Positions 46,563-53,174 of a stretch of DNA of 64,000 nt are shown here, in pieces. Position 1 is the stretch's first letter. The number at the start of each line of letters is the position of its first letter. The translations under genes were made by a program, and so were the position numbers. A model generated the notes under the pieces. It searched no databases, was not told where the DNA came from, and saw only the letters and a list, made by a program, of their open reading frames with translations. Origin of the DNA: an uncultured Thermofilaceae archaeon (GTDB lineage: Archaea > Thermoproteota > Thermoprotei > Thermofilales > Thermofilaceae); NCBI GenBank assembly GCA_938036345.1, contig CALHPJ010000013.1, positions 1 to 64,000 of the forward strand, read 5' to 3'.

Positions 46563-47888
46563 GTGCCTAGGTTCGCCGACCTTCTAGCGGAGGAGGTAAG
46601 GAGGAAGAGGCAGGAGATACTGGCTGTAGTTTCCCGGGGTCTCGAGGCGGCCGAGAGGTACAGGAGCCTCCTCAAGAAGTGGTGGCGCAAGGGTGTACCG
46701 GCCGGTGAGGCCTGGCGCTGTGTGTACGGGGTGGACGGGAGCAGCGATGCCACAGAGGTTTCCGGCGGAGGTGTTGTCCTCTTTACAAGGGCGCTGGCTC
46801 TGTCCAGGGATGGGAGGGAGCTGAGGAAGCTGCTGGTTGACGCGTTTTACCCGAAGTCCGTAAGGGATTATGAGGATTACGTGAGGCTAGTGAGGGAGCA
46901 CGTGGAGCATCTAGCAGCGCTCGAGGCGCTGGAGGCTGGGGCTGAGCTGGTGCTCATCGACGGCTCGCTGTACGGCAGAATGATCCATGTCCTACGCGAG
47001 ATCGACATCCCGGGTAGGGAGGACTTCCTTATGGATTACGTTAAAACCTACAGCGAATTGCTCTCGAAGGCCCTGAGGAGCGGGGCGGTGCTCGCAGGCG
47101 TGAGCAAGGATTCCAGGTCCACGCTTCTCAAAGAGGAGGTCCTCTCCAGCGAGCTGGCGTTGAGCACGGCTTCGCTGCCCGAGCATACACGGGAACGCGT
47201 ACTGAGGCTTTGGAGAGCCCTTCGGCGCACCCCAAACCAAGCTATCAAGGAAGTTAGGGAGATGGCCGCGCGGGGGGCTGTGAACGCCGGAGTCTACGAC
47301 CTCTTCCTGGAGGCCAGAAACCCAATACCCGACTCGAAGGTAATCTCGGCCCTAAACCTGGGCGAGGGGTTCTCCACCCCTTTGAAGCTCAGCTTGAGCA
47401 GCTTGTCCACAGGTATCGGGGACCTCGTCCTCTCGGACTCCGAGGACAAGCTCACCAGCTTGATAGCCGAGGTTTTTGAAAGGACGTGGGATAAACTGGG
47501 GGAGGCATTTGCAGAAAGAGCTAGAGGTCTCATCAAGGCGTTGAAGAGCTATCCCCCCTTGCTCACAAGCTACGCTATCCTCGGAGAAGGAGATGACCCC
47601 CTGCGAGTTGACGCAGTTTTTAAGGGTGTGGAGGAGACCCCGTGCAAGCTTGATAGCGGAGTGCAGCTGCGGTTCACCGATGGGGTTCACCCGGTATTCG
47701 TGTCGGTTATCGGGCAGCTTAAGGCGATGTACGCCGGGCGGAGGTGCTATAACGCTCTGCTCCTCGAAGTTGATAGGAGGGTGAAGGTGACCCGGGAAAC
47801 GGTGGAGACCTATACGAAGATCTTAAGCAAGGAGGTCGGCGAGCTACTTGTGCACTCCAGGGGTGAGAGGCGTGTATTCTACCCTTAA
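46563..47888 (+). CDS. nurA: NurA 5'-3' nuclease
   Basis: Toroidal dimeric nuclease that works with HerA to resect DNA ends in archaeal recombination. The first catalytic aspartate is in YGVDGSSDAT (D58), with a second acidic motif in VLIDGSLYGRM and the C-terminal DGVHPVFVS region. 441 residues. GTG start with TATA box CCTATAATA (46533-46541) 26 bases upstream; this promoter probably drives nurA-herA-mre11-rad50. The stop lies inside the start of herA. Confidence 0.88.
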   Translation: MPRFADLLAEEVRRKRQEILAVVSRGLEAAERYRSLLKKWWRKGVPAGEAWRCVYGVDGSSDATEVSGGGVVLFTRALALSRDGRELRKLLVDAFYPKSVRDYEDYVRLVREHVEHLAALEALEAGAELVLIDGSLYGRMIHVLREIDIPGREDFLMDYVKTYSELLSKALRSGAVLAGVSKDSRSTLLKEEVLSSELALSTASLPEHTRERVLRLWRALRRTPNQAIKEVREMAARGAVNAGVYDLFLEARNPIPDSKVISALNLGEGFSTPLKLSLSSLSTGIGDLVLSDSEDKLTSLIAEVFERTWDKLGEAFAERARGLIKALKSYPPLLTSYAILGEGDDPLRVDAVFKGVEETPCKLDSGVQLRFTDGVHPVFVSVIGQLKAMYAGRRCYNALLLEVDRRVKVTRETVETYTKILSKEVGELLVHSRGERRVFYP

Positions 47889-49479
47889 GCTAGTAGGCAG
47901 GATCGTGGAGGAGGCGACACCGGAGAGCTTTGTCTTCGTCGCATCAAGAGAGGCTTGCCCCCCAAAGTACGAGTACGTGACTGTTAGGTCCCGCGAACTC
48001 GTCGGCGGCAACGAGGGAGAAGTGCACGTATTGGCTCAGGTGACTAAAGTCGTTTCGAGAAGCGCGGCTTACAGCTCGGATTTAGACTTGGAAGCCCTGC
48101 AGAGGGTTTACCAGGTTGGCATCGACGATGCCAACCTTCTCTGCAAGGCCAGGGTGCTCGGCTTCATAGCTGAGGAAGACGGGAGGAAGACCGTGCTGAT
48201 GCCCAGACGGGCTTTCTTCCCGGGGAACCCCGTCTACCTTGCCCCGGACGAGCTGGTTAGGGAGTTCTTCTCCTACGATCCCGAGGAAGGGCTCCGGGTG
48301 GGCTGCCTAGTTACAAGGCCCTCTGTCGACGTTTACCTCTCCGTTAACGGGTTCCGGAGGCACGTGGCCGTCATCGCTCAGACCGGTGCTGGCAAGTCGT
48401 ACACGGTGGGCGTGCTGCTCGAAGAGCTGCTGAGGCTGGGCGCAACAGCCGTCGTGATAGACCCGCACGCGGACTATGTTTTCCTGAGCAGGGACAGGGA
48501 TATGCGCCGGCACGAGTACTCCAGCAGGATCCAGGTGTTCAGAAACCCTAATAGTAGCGGCCGCTATGATCCGAGCCAGCTTGACAACACGCACGAACTC
48601 ACGGTGAAGTTCTCTGAGCTGGAGCCCTACGAGATCGCGAGCATCGCGGGAATGCCTGAGCAGTGGACTAACGTCCAGCGAGCCTTGAAGAAGGCTATCG
48701 ACTTGTTAAGGAAAAACGGAGGGGATTATACGCTGGACGACTTACTGGGTGTGCTGAACGAGATGTCGCAGAGCGGGGGGAGCATCGAAAGGGCTGCGGC
48801 CTTCCGCGCGTACAACAGGGTCGTAAGGTTGAAGAGGTTCAAAGTCTTCGGAGATCGCACCACGTCAGTTGAGGACGAGATACTTAAACCCGGTTTCGTG
48901 TCCGTGCTGGACTTATCTGGGCTTAACGACGCAAGCCAGGACTACATCACCAGCTGGATCTTGGATAGCATTTTCAGGCTGCGGCGAGACGGCGAGTTCG
49001 ACCAGCCAGTTTTTGTAGTCGTAGAGGAGGCGCACAGGTTTGTCCCTGCTAAGGAGAGGAGAGGGAGATCTACGCTATCATCTGCGATCATAAACACGAT
49101 CGCTTCCGAGGGGCGGAAGTTCGGCGTTTTCCTAACTCTCGTTACTCAGCGCCCGAGCAGGATTGACAGCGACTCCCTAAGCCAGTGCAACAGCCAGATA
49201 ATCCTCCGAATCACAAATCCAGCGGATCAGCAGGCAGTTGCCGCTGCAAGCGAAAGGCTGAGCCTCGAGTTGATGGAAGACTTGCCCGGGCTGAACGTGG
49301 GGGAAGCCGTGATCGTGGGTGAGCTGACCAGGGTCCCCGTTATCGTAAAGGTGAGGAGGAGATTGACAAGGGAGGGAGGGGCGGATATAGACCTCGTAGG
49401 CGAGCTGAGGCGCACTCGGCAGGCGCTCAATCTCACGCCGACGCGCTACGGGGTGAGCGGCGTCTTCTCCGAGGTGTGA
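47872..49479 (+). CDS. herA: HerA DNA-translocating helicase/ATPase
   Basis: Hexameric FtsK-like ATPase that pumps DNA into NurA. Walker A QTGAGKSYTVG (K175), Walker B VVVEEAHRFVP (E385/E386), TQRPSR sensor and an N-terminal HAS-barrel. The frame is open from 47848, but GGTGA (47862-47866) five bases before GTG 47872 indicates that start (536 residues). It overlaps nurA by 17 bases, so both should be translated in fixed ratio. Confidence 0.92.
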   Translation: MYSTLKLVGRIVEEATPESFVFVASREACPPKYEYVTVRSRELVGGNEGEVHVLAQVTKVVSRSAAYSSDLDLEALQRVYQVGIDDANLLCKARVLGFIAEEDGRKTVLMPRRAFFPGNPVYLAPDELVREFFSYDPEEGLRVGCLVTRPSVDVYLSVNGFRRHVAVIAQTGAGKSYTVGVLLEELLRLGATAVVIDPHADYVFLSRDRDMRRHEYSSRIQVFRNPNSSGRYDPSQLDNTHELTVKFSELEPYEIASIAGMPEQWTNVQRALKKAIDLLRKNGGDYTLDDLLGVLNEMSQSGGSIERAAAFRAYNRVVRLKRFKVFGDRTTSVEDEILKPGFVSVLDLSGLNDASQDYITSWILDSIFRLRRDGEFDQPVFVVVEEAHRFVPAKERRGRSTLSSAIINTIASEGRKFGVFLTLVTQRPSRIDSDSLSQCNSQIILRITNPADQQAVAAASERLSLELMEDLPGLNVGEAVIVGELTRVPVIVKVRRRLTREGGADIDLVGELRRTRQALNLTPTRYGVSGVFSEV

Positions 49480-50660: not shown

Positions 50661-53174
50661 TTGGTTAAAATTGTTAGCCTGAGGGCGGAGGGCTTCCGCA
50701 GGCTCGGCCTCCACGAGCCTTTAGCGTTCCCCGACGGTTTAACAGTTATTCAGGGCAGGAACGAGGCTGGGAAGTCAACAGTCCTCGAGGCCATACTTTT
50801 CGGCCTCTACGGTGACTTCCGCATCCCCGCCGAGCTCAGGGGCGGCCGCCAGGGACTTGGGAGCCTAGTGAACCACAGGTCGAGCCGGGCAAGGGTTGAG
50901 CTGGTTTTCGAGTTGGGGGGTAAGCGCTACAGGGTTGAGCGGATAGTTGAAGGAGGCGGTGAGGGGGGGCGCCAGATAGACGCGAAACTGGTGGAGCTTG
51001 GCAGCGCTGGGGGGAGGCTTCTCGCTTCAGGCGTCTCTAAGGTCAACGAAATGGTGCAGAAGCTCCTCAGGGTTTCGTGGCGGGAGATGTTAGCGACTAA
51101 CGTGATTGCCCAGAAGGACCTCGAGCGCCTACTCCGGATGGACAAGGGCGACAGGGAGCGGATAATCAACATGATGATGGGCTTCGAGAGTTACAACAAG
51201 GCAATCGAGAAACTTTCCGAGGAGGTGAGGGATCTGCGCCGTAGCCTTGAAGGCGCCAGAGTGGAGGAGAAGGCACTGGCGGAGAAAGTCGAGGAGCTTG
51301 AGGGGGAAGCCAGGAAGTTGGGTGAGTGGAAAACCAGGCTACAGGTACTTGGAGAGAGAATTCCGCAGCTCGAACTCGCTGTGAGTCGGGAGAGGACAGC
51401 TTACGAGTACCTTGTTGAACTCGAGGCAGCTCTTAGGCGCAGGCGCGAGCTCAAGCTGCAGCTCGATTCCACCCGGAGGGAGAGGGTAGAGCTGGCCGGA
51501 AAGCTAGGAGAGGCCAGGGAGCGGCGCGAAAGGATGCTGAGGGAGCTGGAGTGCTTGCACAAGGAGAAGTTGGAGCTAGGGCCCCTAGCGGAGCAGGCTG
51601 AGCGCGAGCTGAGCAACGCCGAGGGCAAGGTTAGGCGGCTTCTCGAGGTACGTGTGGAGGTGGAGGAGCTTTGGAGGAGCTACCGCCTAACCGAGCACGA
51701 GCTGGAAAGTCTGAGGTCCAGGATCTCAGACCTCGCTGGGAAGGTGCGAGAAAGGGGATCTCTGGAGGCGGAAAGGGAGAGAGTGAGAGCTTCCCTGGCC
51801 GCCCTTGAAGGCGCTAAAGGGGCTATCCACCTACCTCCGTGGTGCGTTGCTGGAGCCGTTTTCACGGGAGTGGCCTCAATCATACTCGGGCTTATCTTTC
51901 ACCCGGCGGCTCTCGCCGCGCTCTCCTTTGCCCCGCTGCTGCTGCTGGCCGGTCTTCAGTCGAAGCACCGCAGGCTTCAGGCGCTCGAAGAGAAAATCTC
52001 GGATCTTAAGGGCAAAATTCTCTCCCTGGATGCCGAACTGTATAAGGTTAAGAAGGACGAGGAAGAACTCAATGCCCTGAGAGAAAGGGAGCGCAGCCTG
52101 GTGGAGAGACTGAGTGAAGCTAGAGATCGCCTAGTTGCGGCAGCGGAGCGCGTCGGTTTCAAGGGCGGTCCTGAGGGGCTTGCGAGCAGCGTAGCCGAAC
52201 TCCTGAAAGTAGCTGAGGCAGAGAAAGCTGAGGCCTCTAGGAAGTGGAGCGAGCTAAGCGAAAGGCTGTCGAAGATTGAGAAAGAGCTTTCGAGGTTAGA
52301 CACGGCCGTCAAGATGCTTGAAGCCGAGATCGAGAGCGCCGAGAAAAAGGTGGAGGAGCTGGCCTCGAGCGAGCGTATGCTAGAGGAGGAGCTTTCGAGA
52401 GTTGTAGTGCGCGAGCCGCCTTTCGAGATCGGGGGGATGCCATGGCCTCCAGCGGAGGAGGATTTGGAGGGGGTTTCGGCCATCAGGCTGGAACAGGAGG
52501 GGCGCTACAGGCGGGCGGAGGTCGAGCTTGAGAGGGTGAAGAGCGAGGCCGAAGGTCTCAGGAAGCAGATCGGGGAAACCGAGGAAAGGCTGCAGCAGCT
52601 ACCCGACTTGAGAGCAAGGCTGGACGAGGTTAGGAAGAAGATCCAAGAGGTTGAGGTCGAGCTGAGGGCTAGGGAGATCGCTATGGATGCGCTGAAAAAG
52701 GTGGCAGAGCGGCTGAGGGCCGCTTTCGCACCGAGCGTTGAGGGCAACATGAGCTGGATCATCTCGTACATCACGAACGGCAGGTATAAGGCCGTGCGCA
52801 TAGATCCCCAGACCTACGACGTAGAGGTTTACGATGCCGAAGCTGGTAGGTGGATGCGCCGCGATATCTACAGCGGCGGGACCAACGACCAGTTCCTATT
52901 TGCTATGAGGATAGCTTTCATCCTCTCGCTCCTCCCCGCCGCCAAGGGAACCTACCCAAAGTTCCTCTTCCTCGACGAACCCCTCGGCTCCTCCGACTCT
53001 GAGAGGCGGAGCAGAATCGTCGAGCTGTTGAGCAGGGAGCTTACCCGCCTCTTCGACCAGGTGCTCCTAATCACGCATGTAGATGTCGACGAGCCCCCAG
53101 GCTCCACGATTATCGTGATGAGCGATGGCAGGCCGGAGAGAGTATACCGTGCGGGAGCTGTGGAAGCAGAGTAG
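50661..53174 (+). CDS. rad50: Rad50-like SMC ATPase with transmembrane hairpin in place of zinc hook
   Basis: Walker A GRNEAGKST (32-40) at the N terminus; signature SGGTNDQFLFAMR and Walker B FLFLDEPLGSSD at the C terminus; long coiled coils between. Where Rad50 normally has a CxxC zinc hook, this protein has HLPPWC395 followed by two hydrophobic stretches (~396-413 and ~416-432) joined by His-Pro and closed by SKHRR. No CxxC occurs anywhere. NEAGKST and SGGTNDQ resemble bacterial YhaN-type ATPases. TTG 50661 follows GGGGTGGT. Last gene of the repair operon, starting one base after the mre11 stop. Confidence 0.9.
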   Translation: MVKIVSLRAEGFRRLGLHEPLAFPDGLTVIQGRNEAGKSTVLEAILFGLYGDFRIPAELRGGRQGLGSLVNHRSSRARVELVFELGGKRYRVERIVEGGGEGGRQIDAKLVELGSAGGRLLASGVSKVNEMVQKLLRVSWREMLATNVIAQKDLERLLRMDKGDRERIINMMMGFESYNKAIEKLSEEVRDLRRSLEGARVEEKALAEKVEELEGEARKLGEWKTRLQVLGERIPQLELAVSRERTAYEYLVELEAALRRRRELKLQLDSTRRERVELAGKLGEARERRERMLRELECLHKEKLELGPLAEQAERELSNAEGKVRRLLEVRVEVEELWRSYRLTEHELESLRSRISDLAGKVRERGSLEAERERVRASLAALEGAKGAIHLPPWCVAGAVFTGVASIILGLIFHPAALAALSFAPLLLLAGLQSKHRRLQALEEKISDLKGKILSLDAELYKVKKDEEELNALRERERSLVERLSEARDRLVAAAERVGFKGGPEGLASSVAELLKVAEAEKAEASRKWSELSERLSKIEKELSRLDTAVKMLEAEIESAEKKVEELASSERMLEEELSRVVVREPPFEIGGMPWPPAEEDLEGVSAIRLEQEGRYRRAEVELERVKSEAEGLRKQIGETEERLQQLPDLRARLDEVRKKIQEVEVELRAREIAMDALKKVAERLRAAFAPSVEGNMSWIISYITNGRYKAVRIDPQTYDVEVYDAEAGRWMRRDIYSGGTNDQFLFAMRIAFILSLLPAAKGTYPKFLFLDEPLGSSDSERRSRIVELLSRELTRLFDQVLLITHVDVDEPPGSTIIVMSDGRPERVYRAGAVEAE

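Follow-up and report, generated by a model that had tools for sequence, protein, structure and literature searches.

The window analyzed here, 64,000 nucleotides of a contig from an uncultured, heat-loving Thermofilaceae archaeon, carries four neighboring genes in one direction: nurA, herA, mre11, and a rad50-like gene (Table 1), the partners being identified with Pfam and NCBIfam profiles. The mre11-herA-nurA linkage claimed in a preliminary description of this DNA, made from the sequence alone, is present as a four-gene operon. The real start codon of herA may lie slightly downstream of the called one; the rad50-like ORF has a TTG start codon, 1 base downstream of the mre11 stop codon. By alignment, Mre11 retains metal-site residues D56, H92, H172, H205, and H207.

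Table 1. Operon genes and features of the Rad50-like protein (window positions).
Feature	Position	Strand	Evidence or remark
nurA, end-resection nuclease, 441 aa	46563..47888	+	Pfam NurA PF09376 3.1e-19, over cut-off
herA, DNA translocase/helicase, 543 aa as called	47848..49479	+	Pfam DUF87/HerA 7e-40; NCBIfam HerA 225 bits
mre11 nuclease, 391 aa	49484..50659	+	Metallophos 1.2e-12; Mre11_Sulfo 97 bits; alignment
rad50-like hairpin ATPase, 837 aa	50661..53174	+	AAA_23 3.1e-17; Rad50 PRK03918 135 bits; AlphaFold; Foldseek
Walker A GRNEAGKST, residues 32-40	50754..50780	+	NEAGKST invariant among A1 sequences
Ascending coiled-coil arm, ~residues 176-388	51186..51824	+	AlphaFold helices 176-362, 365-388
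Predicted apex transmembrane helix 1, W394-F413 (20 aa), preceded by Pro-Pro	51840..51899	+	AlphaFold, hydropathy, peptide
Turn His414-Pro415	51900..51905	+	Alignment: HP, NP, GP, or SP frequent among orthologues
Predicted apex transmembrane helix 2, A416-L432 (17 aa), then basic QSKHRR	51906..51956	+	AlphaFold, hydropathy, peptide
Descending coiled-coil arm, ~residues 433-660	51957..52640	+	AlphaFold helices 423-498, 504-579, 602-644, 647-704
ABC signature SGGTNDQ, residues 738-744, YhaN-like	52872..52892	+	Alignment
Walker B FLFLDEP, residues 768-774	52962..52982	+	Alignment

A split ABC ATPase head and a long antiparallel coil are confirmed for the Rad50-like protein by AAA_23, the Walker A, signature, and Walker B motifs, AlphaFold, and Foldseek. 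Among sequences of solved structures, archaeal Rad50 heads come closest, and the top PDB match of the AlphaFold model (A1, 11 sequences; mean pLDDT 80) is Chaetomium Rad50 (7zr1). Against the Rad50 equivalog it scores 135 bits, vs. a cut-off of 700; hooked Rad50s of the same family are also below, at 326-368. The likeness of its motifs to those of YhaN was correctly noted: an SxGTx(D/E)Q-type signature is common to both, and the protein passes the Pfam AAA_27 cut-off of 22 just barely, at 23.1 bits (42 for its relative in G017, and 21.5, just below, for that in G076).

The apex of Rad50 is described as a zinc hook (e.g., PMC6969161, PMC4255302). Here, at the middle of the coil and between arms of similar length, there are instead two hydrophobic stretches joined by His-Pro, as first described; the apex peptide translated from the DNA is GAIHLPPWCVAGAVFTGVASIILGLIFHPAALAALSFAPLLLLAGLQSKHRR. 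Also as described, there are only two cysteines (Cys298 and Cys395) and no CxxC in the 837 amino acids; Rad50_zn_hook gives no match to the protein, and does match a hooked control Rad50 (L047). The turn is without charged residues and both outer flanks are basic. In the AlphaFold model the apex runs from arm to helix 393-412, turn, helix 415-421/423 onward, and arm, with a low pLDDT of 52-60 at the tip. The longest segment of the protein lacking K, R, D, E, and Q is 46 residues and falls at the apex; 5000 composition-preserving shuffles gave 27 at most. The peak hydropathy window is equaled by 41 of 2000 shuffles, and because of this the single hydropathy maximum is weak proof by itself and was rejected as sole proof; conservation is strong evidence.

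Relatives of this protein were compared across 60 genomes. The hairpin is found in 22/22 archaeal rows, always centered at 0.48-0.52 of the protein between about equal arms; the uncharged apex stretch is ~36-46 residues long in nearly all of them, despite diverged coil sequence. The hairpin is mid-protein in every full-length orthologue, drawn from Thermofilaceae, a sister family, and no fewer than five further Thermoproteota families. In full-length hairpin proteins the N arm measures 174-216 residues and the C arm 174-249, where the 249 belongs to rows with an assembly gap and a C arm of 181 in one protein (L045) is a parsing effect. In the hooked archaeal Rad50s, CPxC is present and the hydrophobic apex stretch absent. 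Position at the apex, conservation, and the uncharged run thus support in silico the proposal that a membrane hairpin replaces the zinc hook.

The Thermofilaceae genera are divided cleanly between the two kinds of apex: the hairpin, with no CxxC, is found in the archaeon's own genus and in genera g6 and g7, as well as in family f2, and hooked Rad50s (~900 aa; CPLC, CPVC, or CPIC; no hairpin) in genera g2-g5 and in family f7. When 398 Thermoproteota genomes were searched with a profile, more hairpin Rad50s came up in families f22, f27, f30, f40, f48, and f62, and AUK152 (L064) has an additional one; the hairpin clade extends over many Thermoproteota plus a few Chloroflexota. An assembly or frameshift artefact was rejected, the same architecture being present in complete genomes. 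Plasmid or virus origin was likewise rejected: there were only weak matches among plasmids, and the viral matches have CxxC or no hairpin.

A single Mre11 was found in the archaeon's own genome (92% complete), and one each in four 99%-complete genomes (G005, G008, G010, G012); none of these has a hooked Rad50 match as strong as those in hooked genomes. The remaining SMC protein of the own genome is arcadin-4 (G000:C17:6035-8446, L055), with a CPVC zinc hook, so that a hook-type SMC protein persists there although the Rad50 hook is gone. A hidden second hooked Rad50 was considered and rejected, the other CPVC protein being arcadin-4 and Mre11 being found only once.

Other genomes have two systems. 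One (G015:C14, L229:3736-10242) has a complete mre11-rad50(CPLC)-nurA-herA operon besides the hairpin operon, and another (G089) has the hairpin pair at a place separate from its hooked operon. In two more (G076, G161), the hairpin system is accompanied by another operon, with a Rad50 that lacks hook and hairpin alike (L230:5491-8939, L231:5065-8539), and an Mre11-linked archaeal Rad50 without CxxC hook or hydrophobic hairpin is also found in G186 (L227:5321-7459); the partner Mre11s of these three form a tight clade (100), and HerA is linked in L230 and L231. In two near-complete genomes of family f62 (G369 and G344; L211, L218), the hairpin pair is the only Mre11 match. No HerA match was found anywhere in these two, from which it follows that HerA coupling is not obligatory for the hairpin family. 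The expected partnership with HerA-NurA therefore holds in part: it is present in the operon described here, and nurA and herA are linked in an operon in those hairpin genomes of Thermofilaceae with contigs long enough to show it, but it is not fixed, some hairpin genomes being without detectable HerA and some having both systems.

When the hairpin profile was run against GTDB genomes, the matches listed were mostly bacterial NEAGKS proteins. Among sampled bacterial YhaN-like proteins (rows with both head lobes), 44 of 59 have a mid-coil hydrophobic segment, bearing out what the preliminary description had said of YhaN; in most of the bacterial rows an Mre11-like phosphoesterase gene is directly upstream, and in 3/3 proteins checked AAA_27, the YhaN-type head, is far over its cut-off. 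No mid-coil hydrophobic stretch over threshold was found in certain bacterial clades (L091, L118, L136, L139, L142; L112, L126, L128, L129, L134; L102, L111, L133, L137), a pattern suggesting that YhaN-like clades lost the hairpin several times or acquired it independently.

In a tree of head sequences (350 columns, 64 rows), the archaeal hairpin proteins form a clade with two Chloroflexota proteins (98/92). This clade is sister to bacterial YhaN (93/89), itself a clade of its own (100/100) with the archaeal hairpin set outside, and the main hooked archaeal clade is apart (100/99). In the Mre11 tree, all hairpin-linked Mre11s are in one clade (93), beside the Chloroflexota pair and separate from hooked-type Mre11s. 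Kinship of the hairpin Rad50 with YhaN is favored by these sequences, and only favored, because an AU test leaves standing a single clade of hairpin and hooked archaeal Rad50s (p 0.162). A native hooked archaeal Rad50 might then have been converted, its likeness to YhaN being convergence, an origin compatible with a membrane-bound apex but in our view unlikely. Besides the AU test, it could draw on the Walker B sequence, DEP as in Rad50 vs. DD in most YhaN sampled, and on raw head identity, which is 25.5% to hooked archaeal Rad50 vs. 21.8% to YhaN; it has against it the topology of the best tree, on both sides of the hairpin clade, the GTxDQ signature common to hairpin Rad50 and YhaN, and the partner Mre11s, which are also apart from the hooked type. 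A recent transfer from bacterial YhaN is unsupported, the archaeal set being deep, diverse, and outside bacterial YhaN. The grouping of Chloroflexota L065 and L066 with the archaeal hairpin clade is a hint of old gene transfer between lineages.

The HerA sequences are sorted differently. Those of hairpin operons share one clade (98) with those of hooked operons (L212 in G089, L228 in G275), and the wider neighbors of this mixed clade (L056, L060) are hooked too. Since HerA of one clade may accompany either a hooked or a hairpin Mre11-Rad50, the Mre11-Rad50 pair seems, by sequence, to have been exchanged as a cassette beside the same kind of HerA-NurA. The Rad50s of L056:4784-6901 and L060:1422-3545 are short hooked proteins (706-708 aa) with the unusual motifs GHNDAGKSS and SGGGHE, and their branches are long; the HerA-NurA beside them are related to those of hairpin operons.

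The best reading of these results, and one that is probably correct, is a membrane-anchored Mre11-Rad50 feeding HerA-NurA resection, with membrane insertion of the apex as a prediction. The operon would encode a complete end-processing machine, with a Rad50 of the hairpin (YhaN-like) lineage. Two ABC heads, Mre11, and HerA-NurA would be in the cytoplasm, from which antiparallel coils of ~215 residues each (~30 nm) would reach the cytoplasmic membrane, the Rad50 apex spanning it as a hairpin of two transmembrane helices, its flanks both on the inner side. The two protomers would probably pack their hairpins side by side, and the membrane would substitute for the zinc hook, joining the arms of Rad50 and tethering the complex; the dimer would be closed no longer by a hook but by co-residence in the membrane or by packing of the helices. 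DNA ends, whether broken or incoming, could then be captured, clipped by Mre11, and resected by HerA-NurA, all at the membrane, with end processing kept within one arm's length of it. We infer insertion, topology, in-membrane dimerization, and HerA-NurA coupling from the features described above.

Retention of the Mre11 metal ligands and of the Rad50 ATPase motifs speaks for this membrane-anchored complex; shortness of the helices (17-20 aa) and a proline within the second speak against it. A hydrophobic apex could conceivably also be a soluble dimerization device, with the helices of two apices buried in a four-helix bundle that serves in place of the zinc hook as a hydrophobic “hinge” with no membrane involved. 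The hairpin is located exactly where hooks and hinges are, and small residues (Ala, Gly) are frequent in both helices, as such a bundle would have it; the helices are apolar on every face, however, where a soluble bundle normally shows a polar one, and the long uncharged stretch in nearly all of the 22 archaeal rows and the basic flanks, often with Pro-x-Trp at the border, likewise make the bundle improbable. A different function at the same location is likewise improbable: that of a surveillance nuclease posted at the membrane to act on DNA entering by virus or conjugation, and not general break repair. A membrane position would suit the guarding of entry, certain genomes have a second Mre11-Rad50 system alongside, and the PADLOC profile for Lamassu LmuB gives 150 bits; but this profile also matches hooked archaeal Rad50, at 114-154 bits, and in the archaeon's own genome, as in several complete ones, the protein belongs to the sole Mre11-Rad50, inside a core nurA-herA-mre11-rad50 operon. 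Identification as a Lamassu (LmuB) defense system was rejected, the PADLOC match being unspecific and the hooked Rad50 controls scoring alike.

If the membrane-anchored complex is taken as the working model, its significance is first of all for Rad50 itself: the zinc hook has been treated as defining the Rad50 apex, and here is a lineage in which the sole Mre11-Rad50 has, in its place, a predicted membrane hairpin that is conserved. The occurrence elsewhere of same-clade HerA-NurA beside a hooked Rad50 amounts to a natural swap experiment on the purpose of the apex (dimerization, tethering, or location). A further suggestion is that break repair may be membrane-bound. The open-access literature searched on Rad50 (including that of Thermofilum), YhaN, and SbcEF gave no description of a transmembrane Rad50 or of this hairpin architecture. 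The preliminary description proposed a distinct class of Mre11-Rad50 system; this stands in so far as what is new is the hairpin apex serving as an archaeal Rad50 coupled to HerA-NurA, but not for the architecture itself, which is already present in bacterial YhaN/YhaO-like pairs. Taken to its limit, the argument would make these, together with Thermoproteota and some Chloroflexota, a second architectural class of Mre11-Rad50, its ring closed through the lipid membrane and not a zinc hook, with all Mre11-Rad50-HerA-NurA break processing sited at the membrane in many Thermofilaceae; this is possible, although we lean slightly against so wide a claim.

Compared with known systems, the hairpin protein resembles zinc-hook Rad50 with its Mre11 in having a split ABC head, an antiparallel coil, an Mre11 partner, and a nurA-herA-mre11-rad50 operon, and Rad50 structures are its top fold matches; it differs in its lack of CxxC, its predicted transmembrane apex, its GTNDQ-type signature, and a score far under every NCBIfam Rad50 equivalog cut-off. 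Arcadin-4 (Rkd4) is also SMC-like and encoded in the same genome, but keeps its CPVC hook and has no adjoining Mre11 match. The Chloroflexota proteins of YX3bin23 (L065) and Thermogemmatispora tikiterensis (L066) group with the archaeal hairpin clade by both head and Mre11, but are ~1300 aa long; the hairpin is clear in L066, and the hydrophobic part of L065 is unconvincing. YhaN/YhaO, presumably the SbcE/SbcF of Bacillus, shares the NEAGKST Walker A, the SxGTx(D/E)Q signature, a mid-coil hydrophobic hairpin in most cases, and an Mre11-like phosphoesterase encoded immediately upstream, whereas the archaeal set is a sister clade with DEP in Walker B (DD in most YhaN) and is coupled to HerA-NurA. 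SbcEF has been implicated in break repair but is poorly characterized (PMC6452273). The archaeal hairpin Rad50 offers a handle on the little-studied YhaN/YhaO of bacteria.
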